Shown: positions 53,650-59,531 of the stretch, piece by piece
Numbering within the stretch: position 1 is the stretch's first letter
Layout: each line of letters starts with the position of its first letter
Origin: a candidate division TA06 bacterium B3_TA06
Lineage (GTDB): Bacteria; Hydrothermota; Tepidihabitantia; B3-TA06
Length of the DNA stretch: 62,904 bases
Assembly: GCA_005223075.1 (NCBI GenBank)
Contig: NJBO01000005.1
Coordinates: 1-62,904 of the forward strand
Direction of reading: 5' to 3'
Translations under genes and position numbers: made by a program
Notes under the pieces: model-generated
The model's database searches: none
What the model saw: only the letters and a program-made list of their open reading frames with translations
Told to the model about the DNA's origin: nothing

Positions 53650-54676
53650 GGTTGGAGCCTGGCTTTCAGGCAAAGGGCCCCAAGCTGACATCGTTATCAG
53701 CTCCCGGATACGCCTTGCACGCAACGTGGCCGGGGTATCCTTCCTTCCAAAAGCGTCTCCCCAGGAACAGAAGGAACTGGTTTCCAGCATAAATCGAGCG
53801 TTGGCTGAGGCGCTTATCTCTAACGGACGCGGGGTTGTCCATGTGGAGGACCTGTCGCCACTTGAAGCTCAGTTCCTTCTGGAGCGTCATCTGATCTCAG
53901 CGGATTTCCTGAAAAGCAAGGGGCCGAGAGGATTCTTTGCCACAGAAGACGAGACATTCAGTTTGATGATAAACGAGGAGGATCATCTCAGGCTTCAGGT
54001 TCTTGCATCAGGGCTTTCCCTTAAAGAGGCCTTCAAGCGCACGAGCGAGATCGAAGAACGTTTGAACTCGGCGCTGCCGTTTGCCTATAGCGAGCGCTAC
54101 GGCTTTCTTACCGCTTGTCCTACCAATGTAGGCACCGGGATGCGCGCCTCGATACTCATCCACCTCCCAGGGGTGATTCTAACCAGGGAGATCGACCGTG
54201 TACTGCGCGGAGTTCTGCAGTTGGGACTTTCAGTACGAGGCACGTACGGCGAGGGCACCGAGACCAAGGGACATATCTTCCAGATCTCCAACCAGCGCAC
54301 CCTGGGGCAGAGCGAGGAGGAGATCGTTGAGACCTTAATCAGGATGGCAGAGCAGCTTATCCGCTACGAGCGCGACGCACGAGAGTACCTTTCGACCAAG
54401 ATGGACACCTACATCGAGGATAAGGTCATGCGCTCCTTTGGAATCCTCCGCTATGCCCGTACCCTTACCAGCGAGGAGGCACTTAACCTACTCTCTGCTC
54501 TGCGGTTGGGGCTTGGTTCCTTGAAAGGACTCGATGCAGCGAAGATCAATAAGCTTATGATACTTACCCGACCTGCGAACCTGCAGTTCTTCTTCGACGA
54601 GGAACTTTCGCCAGAGCAGCGCGACCGCAAACGTGCCGAGCTTATCCGAGAGGCCCTTAAGGATGTTGAACCTTGA
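53624..54676 (+). CDS. mcsB: protein arginine kinase McsB
   Basis: About 350 residues (ATG 53624; ATG 53609 also possible; both lie within mcsA). Guanido-kinase core: VISSRIRLARN, RLQVLASG and CPTNVGTGMRASILIHLPG. RGTYGEGTETKGHIFQISN matches the phospho-arginine pocket. McsB marks proteins for ClpCP degradation. Neither clpC nor ctsR is adjacent, unlike in Firmicutes. Confidence 0.92.
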   Translation: MKSGLKASKVGAWLSGKGPQADIVISSRIRLARNVAGVSFLPKASPQEQKELVSSINRALAEALISNGRGVVHVEDLSPLEAQFLLERHLISADFLKSKGPRGFFATEDETFSLMINEEDHLRLQVLASGLSLKEAFKRTSEIEERLNSALPFAYSERYGFLTACPTNVGTGMRASILIHLPGVILTREIDRVLRGVLQLGLSVRGTYGEGTETKGHIFQISNQRTLGQSEEEIVETLIRMAEQLIRYERDAREYLSTKMDTYIEDKVMRSFGILRYARTLTSEEALNLLSALRLGLGSLKGLDAAKINKLMILTRPANLQFFFDEELSPEQRDRKRAELIREALKDVEP

Positions 54677-55610
54677 GGACCTTGGCGAGGAAGGGTTCCT
54701 TGAGCGGCTTGCGACCTGGGTAAAAACCAGGAATCCTGCGGTTCGTATAAGCATTGGCGACGATGCCCTGGTGCTTAGAGACGGGACGGTTGTTACCTCG
54801 GATTCATACGAGGAGGGCGTTCACTTCTCACGGCTCTACTTCTCGCCAGAGGATATAGGCTTCAAGGCAGCCGCAGCGACGCTCTCGGACCTAGCCGCTA
54901 TGGGTGCAGAACCTATCTGTTTCTTGCTGAATCTTTTTGCGCCCCCTCGCTGCGAGATAGATTTCCTTAAGCGTCTCTATAGCGGTATGGAAGAGGTTTG
55001 TGGTCGGTTGGGAGTAGAGATTGCAGGAGGGGATAGCGTTGCGTCAGATAAGCTGATCTTAAGCTGCACCGCACTGGGCAAGACCACCGATCCTCTGCTT
55101 CGCTCAGGGGCTTTAGCAGGCGACCTGCTTTATCTCTCCGGATTCCCAGGCCTGTCTCGAGTTGGGCAGCAGGCACTGCGTAGGGGAGTAGAAGGGTTTG
55201 AGGACGCAAAGCGCCGCCATCTTAGGCCCCAGCCGCGTATTGCTCTGGGGATAGCGCTTAGGGGAAAGGTCTCGGCGTGCATGGACGTATCTGACGGAAT
55301 CTCGACCGATGCAGGCAGATTGGCCAAGGCAAGCAAGGTCAAGCTCGTTGTGGAGTATGAACGCCTGCCGCGCCATCCAGAACTTCTGGCTTTTGCCGAG
55401 CAGTACGGCGGTCACTGGGATTCGCTGGCACTCAACGGGGGAGAGGACTACGAATTGCTCTTTACTGCGTCCCACGACCTCCCCGATTGCATTGCAGACC
55501 TGCCCATCCACCGGATCGGACGCATAGAGGAGGGGAAGGGTGCTTTCCTTGAGATCGGTGGCGAACTGAGGCCTTTGCTTCCCAAGGGTTGGGACCACTT
55601 TAGCAAATAA
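54663..55610 (+). CDS. thiL: thiamine-monophosphate kinase
   Basis: 315 residues from ATG 54663, overlapping mcsB by 14 nt. SIGDDALVL, TLSDLAAMGAEP, IAGGDSVAS and MDVSDGISTDAGRLA are the ThiL metal and ATP motifs; GGEDYELLFT is also typical. It makes thiamine diphosphate, complementing thiC at 60612-61874. Confidence 0.92.
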   Translation: MLNLEDLGEEGFLERLATWVKTRNPAVRISIGDDALVLRDGTVVTSDSYEEGVHFSRLYFSPEDIGFKAAAATLSDLAAMGAEPICFLLNLFAPPRCEIDFLKRLYSGMEEVCGRLGVEIAGGDSVASDKLILSCTALGKTTDPLLRSGALAGDLLYLSGFPGLSRVGQQALRRGVEGFEDAKRRHLRPQPRIALGIALRGKVSACMDVSDGISTDAGRLAKASKVKLVVEYERLPRHPELLAFAEQYGGHWDSLALNGGEDYELLFTASHDLPDCIADLPIHRIGRIEEGKGAFLEIGGELRPLLPKGWDHFSK

Positions 55611-55692: not shown

Positions 55693-55720
55693 TTGACAAA
55701 CATTCAAAATAGCGTATATT
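55693..55720 (+). promoter_or_regulatory. promoter of the small secreted-protein array
   Basis: TTGACA (55693-55698), 16 bp, TATATT (55715-55720). The transcript should begin at about ATGCAACCGGTCGAG, the conserved leader block. Confidence 0.7.
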
Positions 55721-55768
55721 TTTGTGATATGCAACCGGTCGAGAAAACAACAAAGAAAGGAGAAGGTC

Positions 55769-56182
55769 ATGAAAAAGATCCTCCTAATCAGCATGCTCCT
55801 TATAGTGGGAGCAGCCTTTGCGGCATCAACAATGCCTACCCAGACCAATATAGGCCCAACCAGCGCTCTCCAGGCCCTGACCATCTACTGCTGGGAAGGC
55901 ACAGCTACAGCTGTCTGGGATCGCTTTGAGATCTTCTACCACAAAGAAACCGGCGAGATGTGGGGAACCTGGTACCGCGGCGAAAATGAAGGCGGCTGGA
56001 TTGAAGGCTTTGGCGAGCCTGACCCGGCCGGTAAAAGCGCAAACTGGTATATTGGATCAGGCAGTTTCGGCGGAGATGACAGTGGGAAGTGGAAAGGACT
56101 CTTCAAACTGAACGATGAATGTCGAGGCGACGTCTGGAATCTCTGGATTATAGGCGAGTTTTACGGATGGTCCTGCGAATAG
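55769..56182 (+). CDS. small secreted protein, tandem family member 1
   Basis: 137 residues with a signal peptide (LLLIVGAAFAAS, cleavage near AAS-TMP). The mature part is beta-rich with repeated Trp-Gly pairs: YCWEGTATAVWDRFEIFYHK, GEMWGTWYRG, GGWIEGFGEP and GKWKGLFKL. Five paralogues lie in a row (55769-58385). The family is not recognised; the pattern suggests a small beta-barrel. Ribosome site AAAGGAG. Confidence 0.75.
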   Translation: MKKILLISMLLIVGAAFAASTMPTQTNIGPTSALQALTIYCWEGTATAVWDRFEIFYHKETGEMWGTWYRGENEGGWIEGFGEPDPAGKSANWYIGSGSFGGDDSGKWKGLFKLNDECRGDVWNLWIIGEFYGWSCE

Positions 56183-56273
56183 GCCTTTAGCTTAAAAACC
56201 TCGGTTGGTTGCATGTGTCTTTGAGAAAGAACCGGTATACGACCGGTCGAAAAAAACACAAAAGGAGAAAGAC

Positions 56274-56687
56274 ATGAAAAGGACCCTTTCAATCGCGTTG
56301 CTCCTCATGGTAGGAGCAGCCTTTGCGGCATCAACGATGCCTACCCAGATCAATATAGGCACAACCAGTGATCTCCAGAGCCTGACCATCTACTGCTGGG
56401 AAGGCACAGCCTCGGTTCTATGGGATCGCTTCGAGATCTTCTACCACAAGGAAACCGGCGAGATGTGGGGCACCTGGTATCGCAAAGAGGATGAAGGTGG
56501 TTGGATTGAAGGCTATGGCGAGCCAGCCCCCACCGGTCCAGCTAAGAACTGGATCATCGGTAAAGGCATCTTCGACGGCGATGACAGCGGCGGCTGGGAA
56601 GGAACCTTCATCCTTGACCGCCGATGCTGGGGTAACGTCTGGAACATGATGGTTATCGGCATCTTTGAAGGTCGAGCTTGTCCATAA
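56274..56687 (+). CDS. small secreted protein, tandem family member 2
   Basis: 137 residues. The same layout: signal peptide, YCWEGTASVLWDRFEIFYHK, GTWYRKEDEGGWIEGYGEP, GGWEGTFILDRRCWGNVW. Three mature cysteines are shared with member 3 (YCW, RCW, RAC). The start at 56274 follows AAAGGAG; upstream frames are not used. No separate promoter; likely read through from 55693. Confidence 0.75.
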   Translation: MKRTLSIALLLMVGAAFAASTMPTQINIGTTSDLQSLTIYCWEGTASVLWDRFEIFYHKETGEMWGTWYRKEDEGGWIEGYGEPAPTGPAKNWIIGKGIFDGDDSGGWEGTFILDRRCWGNVWNMMVIGIFEGRACP

Positions 56688-56705
56688 ACCCTTAGCTTAA
56701 AAAAC

Positions 56706-56756
56706 CTCGGCCGGTTGCATGTGTCTTTGAGAAAGAGTCGTATGCAGCCGGTCGAG
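56706..56756 (+). promoter_or_regulatory. conserved intergenic RNA hairpin with G.U pairs
   Basis: CTCGGCCGGTTGCAT (56706-56720) pairs along all 15 positions with ATGCAGCCGGTCGAG (56742-56756) if two G.U pairs are allowed. The 21-nt loop contains its own CTTT-GAG-AAAG hairpin. A related structure with more G.U pairs lies between members 1 and 2 (about 56207-56255). It is placed 23 nt before the next ATG. It may be a processing, stability or regulatory element. Confidence 0.6.
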
Positions 56757-56779
56757 AAAAACAAAGAAAGGAGAAAGAC

Positions 56780-57193
56780 ATGAAAAAGATCCTTTCAATC
56801 GCTACGCTCCTCATGGTAGGAGCAGCCTTTGCGGCATCAACGATGCCTACCCAGACCAATATAGGTCCAACCAGCGATGTCCAGGCCCTGACCATCTACT
56901 GCTGGGAAGGCACGGCTTCAGCTATATGGGATCGCTTCGAGATCTTCTACCACAAAGAAACCGGCGAGATGTGGGGAACCTGGTATCGCGGAGAAGACGA
57001 AGGCGGTTGGATTGAAGGCTTTGGCGAGCCGGACCCGACCGCTCCAGCTAAGAACTGGATTGCAGGATCAGGGCGCTTCGACGGCGACGACCGCGGAGAG
57101 TGGAAAGGAACCTTCATACTTGACAGCCGATGCTGGGGCAACGTCTGGAACATGATGGTTATCGGCACCTTTAGAGGTCGAGCTTGTCCATAA
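56780..57193 (+). CDS. small secreted protein, tandem family member 3
   Basis: 137 residues, the closest relative of members 1 and 2: signal peptide LLMVGAAFAAS, YCWEGTASAIWDRFEIFYHK, GEWKGTFILDSRCWGNVW, end FRGRACP. AAAGGAG precedes the ATG. Confidence 0.75.
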   Translation: MKKILSIATLLMVGAAFAASTMPTQTNIGPTSDVQALTIYCWEGTASAIWDRFEIFYHKETGEMWGTWYRGEDEGGWIEGFGEPDPTAPAKNWIAGSGRFDGDDRGEWKGTFILDSRCWGNVWNMMVIGTFRGRACP

Positions 57194-57484
57194 ACCTTTA
57201 GCTTAAAAAACCTTCGCCCGGTTGCATGCATTAAATGCTCCTTTTAGCCTGCGGCTAAAAGATCGCAGTAACGTAAGGGCCGATCTTGACGCCTTCGATG
57301 CCCGCTTTGCGTCAGGTCGGCCCGCCCTTATGATTCGACCCCCCACCTAGATGCTCAACTCGGAGGGCTCAATCCTTTCGTTTCTATTACCTCTTCCATC
57401 ATCTCTTGGGCGTTCGCGCGGTGGCCCCGAAAACACACTCTGCGTCGTTGGCTTATTCAAATTTGTAATATTAAGCCACACTAC
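57194..57484. repeat. 366-bp spacer: insertion between hairpin arms
   Basis: The left arm of the conserved hairpin is at 57213-57227, but its right arm is at 57521-57535. Between them are a TGCTCC..GATCGCAG hairpin (57236-57268), a GGGCCGATCTTGACGCC...GGTCGGCCC module (57278-57325), and a new promoter. No gene is seen. Confidence 0.65.
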
Positions 57485-57512
57485 TTGACAATGTGATTTT
57501 TTTATGTAAAAT
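57485..57512 (+). promoter_or_regulatory. second promoter in the secreted-protein array
   Basis: TTGACA (57485-57490), 16 bp, TAAAAT (57507-57512). As at 55693, transcription would begin at the ATGCAGCCGGTCGAG block. Confidence 0.65.
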
Positions 57513-57559
57513 TCCACAATATGCAGCCGGTCGAGAAAACAACAAAAAAGGAGAAAGAC

Positions 57560-57961
57560 ATGAAAAAGATCATTATGCTCGCCCTGCTGGTGGTAGCAGT
57601 GATCGCTTTCGCCGCGTCTTCTAACCCCGCAGAGAAAACCGAACTCCAGAACCCTGTCGATCACATCATGTACATAGGCTGGTCCGGTACAGGAACCGGT
57701 GCCTGGCAAAAATTCGAGATTTACTACGATCGTGATACCCGCATCTTTGAAGGCAAGTGGTGGTATGACAACGCCCACTGCGGCTGGATCGAAGGCAAAG
57801 CGGTCAAGGATATCGATGATGTTGGAGTAATAGGCGAAGGCCGGTTCGGCGGCGATTACGCCGGAGCCTGGGAAGGCACCTTCTACTTCAGAGGGGAATG
57901 CTTCGGAAAGACCTGGGCGAAAACCTATCCGCCCGGCGACGGCAAGTTCTACGGGATGTAG
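57560..57961 (+). CDS. small secreted protein, tandem family member 4
   Basis: 133 residues; signal peptide VVAVIAFAAS, then GTGTGAWQKFEIYYDRDTR, FEGKWWYDN, CGWIEGKAV and GAWEGTFYFRGECFGKTW. Start 57560 follows AAGGAG. An in-frame ATG at 57521, 8 nt after the -10 box, could add thirteen residues (MQPVEKTTKKEKD), but the other copies do not keep that frame. Members 4 and 5 form a subfamily. Confidence 0.72.
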   Translation: MKKIIMLALLVVAVIAFAASSNPAEKTELQNPVDHIMYIGWSGTGTGAWQKFEIYYDRDTRIFEGKWWYDNAHCGWIEGKAVKDIDDVGVIGEGRFGGDYAGAWEGTFYFRGECFGKTWAKTYPPGDGKFYGM

Positions 57962-57986
57962 GCGACAAATCAAGAAAGGAGAAGCA

Positions 57987-58385
57987 ATGAAGAAAATCAT
58001 ATCCGTGGCCCTTATTCTTCTGGCGGTAGGACTGATTGCGGCCGCCAGCGATCCCGCGGAGTCCAAGGCGGTACAGGAGCCTGATGATCCCCTCATGTAC
58101 ATATACTGGTCAGGGCACGGCACCGGTGCATGGCGGGAGTTCGAAATCTACTACGATATGGAAACACGACTCTTCGAAGGCAAGTGGCGTAACGGCGAGC
58201 GCAGAGGATGGATCAGAGGCGAGGCTGTAGAGGATATAGACAATGTCGGAGTTATAGGAGTAGGAACGTTCGGCGGAGACTGGTCGGGAACCTGGAAAGG
58301 AACCTTTTACTTCAGAGGCGAGTGCTTCGGCGAAACCAGGGCAACCACCTTTCCGCCCGGATCAGGAACATTCTGGGGTATCTAA
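57987..58385 (+). CDS. small secreted protein, tandem family member 5
   Basis: 132 residues; signal peptide ending near IAAASDPAE, then GTGAWREFEIYYDMETR, FEGKWRNGERRGWIRG, GTWKGTFYFRGECFGETR. AAAGGAG lies upstream, 26 nt after member 4. A hairpin (58391-58425) follows the stop. Confidence 0.75.
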   Translation: MKKIISVALILLAVGLIAAASDPAESKAVQEPDDPLMYIYWSGHGTGAWREFEIYYDMETRLFEGKWRNGERRGWIRGEAVEDIDNVGVIGVGTFGGDWSGTWKGTFYFRGECFGETRATTFPPGSGTFWGI

Positions 58386-58425: not shown

Positions 58426-58520
58426 TAATTACTCCTTGTGCCCTTTAGGGTAAAAGATCGCAGGGGATAAAAGAGAATAGTTTGACCCCTCATAAGCTGT
58501 GAGCTGTCAGCGCGTAGACT

Positions 58521-59531
58521 TCAGCTCAAATACGTCAGTCCCGTTATCTCCCGAACTTCCTTCATCGTTGCTTGAGCGATCTGGCGGGCCCGATCCGTGC
58601 CGTCTCTAATGATCTCCTTAACCCCATCCAGGTTGGCCATAAGCTCCTTCTGGCGCTCCTGGATCGGCTCAAGCACTGCAAGGATGTTCTTTATAAGAAT
58701 CGCCTTGCAGTCCAGGCAGCCGAAGCCTGCCTTCCTGCACTCTTTGGCGCAGTAGGCCTGCTCCTCCTTGGATGAGAAGAACTCCTGCCAGGTAAAGATG
58801 TTGCAGATGTCAGGGTTGCCCGGATCTGTGCGTTTTACCCGTGCCGGGTCGGTAACGCCCTGCTTGTTTATCTTCTCCCGGATCACGTCAGGCTCGTCAT
58901 CAAGATAGATGCAGTTATCAAGGCTCTTGGACATCCGGTTCTTTCCGTCAAGCCCGATCACCCGCGCCTGGCTACCGATTATCTCCCTCGGCTCTGGGAA
59001 GAAGGAACCGAACCGCGCGTTGAACGCTCGCGCGATCTCACGGGTCAATTCGAGATGCGGGCGCTGATCCTCACCCACCGGCACGGCGACCGACTTGTAG
59101 ATCAGGATGTCTGCGGCCATGAGCACCGGATAGTTAAACAGGCCCATGTTGACGTTGTCCGGTTGCTGGCGCGCCTTCTCCTTGAACGTGGGCACCCGCT
59201 GAATCCAGGGGAGAGGAGTCACCGTGGCCAGTATCCAGGCTAATTCCGCATGCTCTTGAACGCCTGATTGAAGCATCAGCGTGGCTTTATTTGGATCAAG
59301 CCCACATGCAAGGTAGTTGACTGCCGCGTTGATGATACGCTGTGACATCTCCTTGCTTTTGTATATCTGGGTCATTGCGTGCAGGTCAACGATACCGAAG
59401 ATGCACTCGTATTCCTTCTGCAGCGGCACGAACTGGCTGATCGCTCCCAGGTAGTTACCTATGTGCAGCCTGCCTGAGGGCTGGATACCTGAAAAGATCC
59501 TTTGTCTCGACATCGTCCCGCCGGATGTCAT
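58521..59531 (-). CDS. trpS: tryptophanyl-tRNA synthetase
   Basis: 336 residues. HIGH-type motif SGRLHIGNYLGAI and KMSKS-type NRMSKSLDN; DLHAMTQIY and PVGEDQRPHLELTREIARAF are typical. Start 59531 is preferred: AAGGAG lies 5 nt upstream and the ATG overlaps the aminotransferase stop (ATGA). A second ATG is at 59513. Third gene of the thiC operon. Confidence 0.94.
   Translation of the reverse strand: MTSGGTMSRQRIFSGIQPSGRLHIGNYLGAISQFVPLQKEYECIFGIVDLHAMTQIYKSKEMSQRIINAAVNYLACGLDPNKATLMLQSGVQEHAELAWILATVTPLPWIQRVPTFKEKARQQPDNVNMGLFNYPVLMAADILIYKSVAVPVGEDQRPHLELTREIARAFNARFGSFFPEPREIIGSQARVIGLDGKNRMSKSLDNCIYLDDEPDVIREKINKQGVTDPARVKRTDPGNPDICNIFTWQEFFSSKEEQAYCAKECRKAGFGCLDCKAILIKNILAVLEPIQERQKELMANLDGVKEIIRDGTDRARQIAQATMKEVREITGLTYLS

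Follow-up and report, generated by a model that had tools for sequence, protein, structure and literature searches.

What are the five small, similar genes that stand in a row between thiL and trpS in the candidate division TA06 bacterium B3_TA06, and what has become of such genes elsewhere in its lineage? They lie at positions 55769-58385 of a 62,904-nucleotide (nt) stretch of contig NJBO01000005.1 (assembly GCA_005223075.1), here called the window, which is the whole stretch of DNA that was analyzed. We suggest that the five genes belong to a protein family that is restricted to one lineage and apparently undescribed, and whose products are exported without being lipidated. That this is a family of soluble exported eight-stranded barrels is, in our judgement, probable. 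The complete explanation that we favour, in which exported stand-alone eight-stranded barrels bind via a variable outer face and gain variants by tandem duplication, is put forward tentatively and with a little less than even confidence. The tandem genes, the family and the arrays were read from sequence; the eight strands and the fixed and variable faces come from prediction combined with alignment.

An earlier note on this DNA, made from the letters alone, had described five tandem paralogues of 132-137 residues in two subfamilies, and both points were confirmed. Copies 1 to 3 (subfamily A, 137 amino acids (aa) each) were located at 55769-56182, 56274-56687 and 56780-57193, copies 4 and 5 (subfamily B, 133 and 132 aa) at 57560-57961 and 57987-58385; all are intact open reading frames (ORFs) on the + strand. 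Since 34 alignment columns are invariant across the five copies, all of them are homologous. Copy 1 shared 69 and 74% identity with copies 2 and 3 and 38 and 36% with copies 4 and 5, which separates the two subfamilies. The starts of copies 1-3 lie 505 and 506 nt apart, a spacing that tandem duplication would produce. The array is flanked upstream by thiL (54633-55610, + strand) and on the far side by trpS (58521-59531, - strand), both named from their translations.

Counterparts were present at the same locus in two relatives, which argues against a chance array in the window. The first, G001, belongs to the same genus (Candidatus Stahlbacteria bacterium E44_bin36, contig SOJW01000042.1), and the phylum label Stahlbacteria/WOR-3 was taken over from it for the window genome (G000). 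It carried four copies between thiL and trpS, three of which were close counterparts of copies 3, 4 and 5 in the same order, while the fourth was of a divergent type. In the second, G005, one relative was found between the same two genes.

The N-terminus of each copy resembles a signal peptide when read by eye, with basic residues, a hydrophobic stretch and an Ala-rich end. The alignment of the five copies and the predicted strands also supported the beta-rich WEG/WKG blocks which, together with a signal peptide, had been claimed before. A lipobox-like cysteine pattern was found in none of 101 family members, window copies included. The family had further been called unknown, and it kept this status. 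Searches of Pfam and NCBIfam gave only weak signal-peptide or chance matches (five window copies; ten and seven relatives), the best profile-library match (E 0.0016) covering residues 1-22 of copy 4. No convincing match was obtained in PHROGs and PADLOC (five window copies and two relatives), and nothing below E 0.33 in PDB sequences with three profiles. A narrow literature search found no paper on the family.

With copy 3 as sole query, only the five copies were detected in the window genome, and matches were found in 2 of 60 relatives. The profile named A2 drew in weakly similar arrays, whose members were aligned as A3 and A4; when these two were run against 147 genomes of the phylum, long arrays came to light. 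The three profiles match one another at hhalign E-values of 4e-8, 4e-11 and 3e-13 (probabilities 95-98%), scores that are inflated by the signal peptides included in the profiles. A hidden Markov model search at E 1e-4 yielded 101 members: 22 in G000, 14 in G001, 9 in G002, 6 in G003, 5 in G004, 27 in G005, 16 in G006 and 2 in G007. These were counted in 25 regions chosen from hits, one of which was empty, and include two fragments under 115 aa; since the assemblies are drafts and a handful of weak hits is not included, the counts are minimum numbers. The array of five described before was therefore correct for the window locus but missed the scale, namely at least 22 members in this genome.

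Each of the eight genomes in the family-level group f1 contained members, and arrays comprised 1-19 copies. Weak matches occurred in nine of the other 139 genomes of the phylum (4, 4 and 1 by search; best E 3.8e-4); none was taken as credible and none was counted. The frame that holds the best of them, in G103, reads by eye as a Cas6-like protein. Viral contigs gave no match to copy 3 or profile A3. In one scan of genome contigs with profile A2 only (A3 and A4 were not used) the sole match was the G001 contig, which does not imply absence beyond the phylum.

The members were concentrated at three recurring loci, which hold 84 of the 101; the remaining 17 lie elsewhere, including arrays of six (G005) and three (G006). 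The thiL-trpS locus contained five copies in G000, four in G001, one in G005 and one in G004, where only the trpS side is visible. A second locus, at which a HEAT-repeat protein of about 922 aa precedes the array and a flavodoxin-like gene follows it, carried 13, 6, 6, 3, 3, 19 and 11 copies in G000 to G006, respectively. The third, near a SIMPL-domain gene, carried three, four, two and three copies in G000 to G003. Names of these neighbours rest on Pfam in one genome (two for the repeat protein) and otherwise on reading by eye. The long arrays at the second locus consist of diverged members and span L069 6111-12824 (G000 contig C3, 13 copies), L072 1883-11906 (G005 C79, 19 copies) and L073 4171-9994 (G006 C67, 11 copies). 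Three matches run over one stop codon (L034 3310-3753; G000 C6 79272-79655; G006 C41 24852-25211), and array members of this kind may be decaying or ending early.

Diverged small exported proteins in tandem at fixed loci resemble orphan immunity arrays, which are made up of diverged small paralogues and change in copy number. The genes could accordingly supply a stock of periplasmic proteins that neutralize toxins of competitors, either inhibitors that resemble lysozyme inhibitors or immunity proteins of the orphan type. However, no periplasmic lysozyme inhibitor or immunity profile of Pfam, NCBIfam or PADLOC matched the family, and no toxin was seen among the ten neighbouring proteins scanned, the other neighbours being judged from their first 70 residues only. 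We regard this explanation as quite unlikely.

The protein of about 922 aa (L069 3219-5987 and relatives) shows by eye repeats of the GDDxY...QGxGxxGxGxLxD type in addition to HEAT, besides which no Pfam match was found at E 0.01. A functional tie between it and the family was considered and rejected: it adjoins one array in seven of the eight genomes, yet matches at E 1e-20 were present in 112 of the 147 genomes of the phylum. As 104 of these 112 lie outside the group, it is rather an older neighbour than an array-specific one. Repeat genes were also observed in two relatives. At L011 7505-8308 in G001, near the contig end, stands a repeat ORF that we take to be SBBP-like, and of thiL no more than the final codons seem to come after it; thiL may have been interrupted by an insertion, or the assembly may have joined separate stretches here. 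A similar repeat gene (L032 162-1160) stands ahead of the family member of G004.

To which fold do the proteins belong? AlphaFold models were obtained for copy 3 (model m0064dcecd96f, 10-row alignment) and copy 4 (m5732ad08abb0, window and L013 rows only). Both showed eight strands, with a block-mean predicted local distance difference test score (pLDDT) from residue 41 onwards of 90-97 and 84-97, respectively. In the copy 3 model residues 1-35 were below pLDDT 50 and six of the eight strands were 7-8 residues long. For copy 3, Foldseek placed HpuA at the head of its list and fHbp and TbpB behind it, with E-values starting at 1.2e-3; for copy 4, NHBA and fHbp led the list, with E-values from 1.3e-2. 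With VIA-align, copy 3 reached Z 11.3 to fHbp (2kdy) and LbpB (3uaq) and 10.9 to OmpX; copy 4 reached Z 11.9 to OmpX, 11.4 to LbpB and 11.3 to fHbp. The top matches span 88-95 residues, and rows within 1 Z are to be read as tied. Among the best 50 rows of each list, the C-terminal barrels of fHbp, LbpB/TbpB, HphA, NHBA and HpuA scored Z 9.0-11.4 over 87-97 residues at 1.9-3.6 A. Such matches give the fold class of the predicted models, not their descent.

The earlier note had asked whether the fold is a lipocalin- or avidin-like barrel. A barrel was predicted, but its nearest folds are of the fHbp/TbpB type and OmpX, and FABP-, lipocalin- and anticalin-like chains stand lower in the Foldseek lists (from rank 19 for copy 3 and rank 42 for copy 4), with template modelling scores by query of 0.34-0.37 for FABP, odorant-binding and anticalin chains.

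The strand residues of the copy 3 model were split by alternation, and conservation was taken from the 10-row alignment. Invariant positions made up 18 of 33 on one face and none of 35 on the opposite face, so that all 18 invariant strand residues lie on one side. The invariant face comprised 40% Gly, 31% Trp/Phe/Tyr/His and 5% charged residues, 49% of it being hydrophobic; the opposite face was 36% charged. In the A3 subfamily the invariant residues follow mostly the same alternation over eight blocks, as read by eye. The opposite, variable face had a net charge of -1 to -5 in all five window copies. What varies in the family is copy number and one strand face.

An invariant face opposite a variable charged one is read most simply as a soluble barrel with a packed core of Gly and aromatic residues. 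We infer that the fixed face forms the packed interior and that the protein occurs in soluble form, either in the periplasm or beyond the cell. The phylum isolate sy37 is reported to have both an inner and an outer membrane (PMC12285271); should this group share such an envelope, the proteins would be at least periplasmic.

The opposite orientation would give small outer-membrane barrels of the OmpX/Ail type, with the Gly/aromatic face towards the lipid and the charged face inside. OmpX ranked third for copy 3 and first for copy 4 and shares the eight-stranded meander, and a designed membrane barrel matched as well (Z 10.0 and 9.8). Small outer-membrane barrels usually end in a C-terminal aromatic residue (the beta-signal), but a C-terminal F, Y or W was found in only 7 of 101 members (two of the 101 being fragments), the termini being mostly charged or Pro. 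Together with the short length of six of the eight strands this makes such a barrel less likely. In addition, a lipid face with 40% Gly would be unusual, and the net negative charge of the other face would be awkward for a closed interior. Taken together, we consider a membrane barrel improbable.

Calycin-like capture proteins, which hold a small ligand inside the barrel in the style of lipocalins, avidin or FABP, would likewise be exported eight-stranded barrels. Calycin barrels carry Gly-Trp blocks near their start, as do the proteins studied here, and the chains low in the Foldseek lists belong to this class. However, conserved Trp, Phe, Ile and Tyr would occupy the presumed interior and leave little cavity, and the better fold matches are barrels that are not known to hold a ligand inside. 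Internal capture appears very unlikely as their function, and a soluble barrel with a packed interior is preferred.

How the copies arose was analyzed with a tree of 99 members, namely all those with 115 aa or more, in which only 38 of 96 inner branches were well supported. The proteins of the thiL-trpS locus grouped in a single clade (11 rows, support 100/97). For G005 C79, with its 19 copies, 18 changes were counted, the same as in shuffles (17.9), the 13 copies of G000 C3 gave eight changes compared to 12.6 in shuffles, and the six copies of G005 C115 were nearly one clade (two changes). All groups together gave 57 changes compared to 73.9 in shuffles, indicating some clustering. Since most arrays are not species clades, old paralogues appear to be shared between genomes and to be turning over, and some recent duplication within genomes seems to have occurred beside them. 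Within four arrays the median identity was 50, 38, 42 and 37%, with maxima of 64-84%.

A role under changing selection had also been suggested for the array, but rapid evolution of its proteins was not supported at the level of whole genes. Among 75 near pairs, from which ratios with a synonymous rate (dS) of 0.02 or below were left out, the ratio of non-synonymous to synonymous rates (dN/dS) was 0.10-0.67, with medians of 0.33 within and 0.30 between genomes and no pair above 1. The three orthologue pairs of the window locus gave 0.15, 0.67 and 0.16, and copies 1-3 gave 0.31-0.34. Below the level of the gene, 1.27 was obtained for the mature part of the copy-4 pair (one synonymous, five non-synonymous changes) and 1.45 for the signal peptide of copies 2 and 3 (one and four). 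These ratios indicate whole-gene purifying selection on near copies; being pairwise averages, they could still hide selection that acts on a small number of surface positions. The copy-4 orthologues in G000 and G001 (window 57560-57961 and L011 5898-6299) differed by two synonymous and five non-synonymous changes, and their dS of 0.024, compared to 0.147 and 0.139 for copies 3 and 5, hints at recent exchange or conversion between the genomes.

Purifying selection over whole genes would also suit proteins that assemble into a layer, matrix or filament outside the cell, in which many genes serve dosage and the variable outer faces serve assembly. Runs of as many as 19 consecutive copies, a total of 27 members in a single genome, the acidic mature proteins (median isoelectric point 4.75, n=99) and intergenic hairpins of a kind that may belong to processed or stabilized mRNAs fit such a role. 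However, the array copies are diverged to the median identities given above, which dosage alone does not need, and the copy number falls to two and five in two relatives, in part perhaps through incompleteness of these drafts. We consider a structural layer rather unlikely.

Surface-binding scaffolds outside the inner membrane are in our opinion the most likely role of the family. The proteins would consist of a signal peptide, a linker of about 15 residues read as disordered and one eight-stranded up-and-down beta-barrel. After export the signal peptide would be cleaved, leaving a flexible linker and a stable barrel whose outer face and loops would bind something, rather than a ligand being held in a cavity. 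The set of variants would arise as genes at fixed loci are duplicated in tandem, diverge and are lost. Candidate ligands are surface polymers, neighbouring cells and nutrients.

Several points weigh against binding scaffolds. Whole-gene diversifying selection was not seen among the 75 near pairs. Neither model had a Foldseek match at E 0.001 or better, and OmpX at its high ranks scores structurally level with the soluble barrels. The inside and outside of the barrel were assigned from alternation and composition, not from coordinates. The position of the invariant residues guided the choice of phase for each strand; even so, permutations given the same freedom of phase captured all 18 in just 0.02% of 20,000 (mean 13.1), which speaks for the fixed face. 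The large A3 subfamily and A4 are joined to the barrel family by profile-profile scores only, so that their membership is putative. Finally, the handle or effector domains that the structural relatives have in addition to the barrel (PMC12282271) are missing from the family models.

If binding via the surface holds true, nature would have produced in these barrels an equivalent of engineered binding scaffolds, and they could help to understand how the little-known WOR-3 bacteria interact with their surroundings. The five-gene array is the small end of a larger family, which numbers 101 proteins or more and combines an apparently frozen core with a variable surface and a copy number of 1-19 at recurring loci. 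One may go further and propose that a lineage within the WOR-3/Stahlbacteria phylum has evolved a repertoire of barrels for surface binding, which do without lipid, handle and Slam and are multiplied at fixed loci to as many as 19 in an array. This we consider unlikely; if true, the logic would be like that of engineered scaffolds, and the outer membrane would have to be crossed by a route not yet described.

The region between the genes holds further features that may concern expression. A sigma-70-like promoter ahead of copy 1 (55693-55720, + strand; TTGACA, 16 nt, TATATT) and a second one ahead of copies 4-5 (57485-57512, + strand; TTGACA, 16 nt, TAAAAT) each match 11 of 12 consensus positions. 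The consensus scan gave six promoter-like sites compared to 2.7 expected in shuffles, and a match alone is no evidence of function. Near the expected 5' end of the mRNA lies a leader arm, ATGCAACCGGTCGAG (55729-55743, + strand), with near-copies at 56237, 56742 and 57521; ATGCARCCGGYCGAG or a near-copy precedes each of copies 1-4, and a near-copy of its reverse complement follows each of copies 1-3. Allowing up to three mismatches, the leader pattern had seven matches in the window genome. Three were exact, all at the array locus; four had three mismatches, one of them at the array locus, and the backward control gave three matches.

In the gap between copies 2 and 3 the leader arm and its reverse complement were predicted to pair into a hairpin with 22 base pairs (56706-56756, + strand; -34.7 kcal/mol, z -6.7, none of 200 shuffles as stable). 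The inverted repeat between copies 1 and 2 (56200-56251, + strand) is diverged, pairs largely by G-U when read by eye and was no better than shuffles (z -0.6). At the G001 locus, hairpins of the leader arm and its reverse complement (L011 6300-6385 and 6807-6905) gave z -4.4 and -7.5. No U run was found 3' of the hairpin on the + strand, and for this reason it is read as a putative processing or stabilizing element instead of a terminator. Another repeated intergenic element, GGCTAAAAGATCGCAG / GGGTAAAAGATCGCAG, flanks copies 4-5 at 57253-57268 and 58448-58463. Rfam recognized within the window only a tRNA, outside the array.

Compared with known systems, the family shares with orphan immunity and inhibitor arrays the tandem arrangement of diverged copies, and differs from them in its sequence and its scanned neighbours as described above. 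Lipocalins, avidin and FABP are small barrels as well, many of them secreted, but the fold match of the family to them is weaker, its interior is presumably filled and no lipocalin, avidin or FABP profile of Pfam or NCBIfam matched. Strand number and meander topology of the models agree with OmpX/Ail (Z 10.0-11.9), whereas the mostly short strands, the variable charged face, the Gly-rich invariant face and the mostly charged or Pro C-termini do not.

The closest likeness is to the TbpBBD/lipoprotein C barrel of Slam cargo (fHbp, NHBA, HpuA, TbpB/LbpB, HphA), which is an exported eight-stranded barrel of about 100 residues, as is predicted for the family. In Proteobacteria, type 11 secretion cargo proteins have this kind of barrel in common and carry their effector domains N-terminal to it; unlipidated cargo, such as HphA, is known as well (PMC12282271). 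In contrast, the family has no detectable sequence relation to it in Pfam, NCBIfam or PDB sequences, lacks a lipobox, is arranged in tandem arrays and belongs to a phylum other than Proteobacteria. Its barrel also stands alone, as the models hold nothing else beyond the first 35 residues of low confidence. The SlipAM translocator (PF04575, DUF560) was found in none of the eight group genomes, a weak test since these are drafts and matches occurred in only 2 of the 147 genomes of the phylum and in none of 14 controls. Without an effector domain and with no SlipAM in the eight genomes, the family may resemble the Slam carrier domain without being one, and if its proteins leave the cell they would need an outer-membrane route other than the known Slam partner of the fold. 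Barrels of this fold class are known already; what is new is that they stand alone and form arrays of as many as 19.

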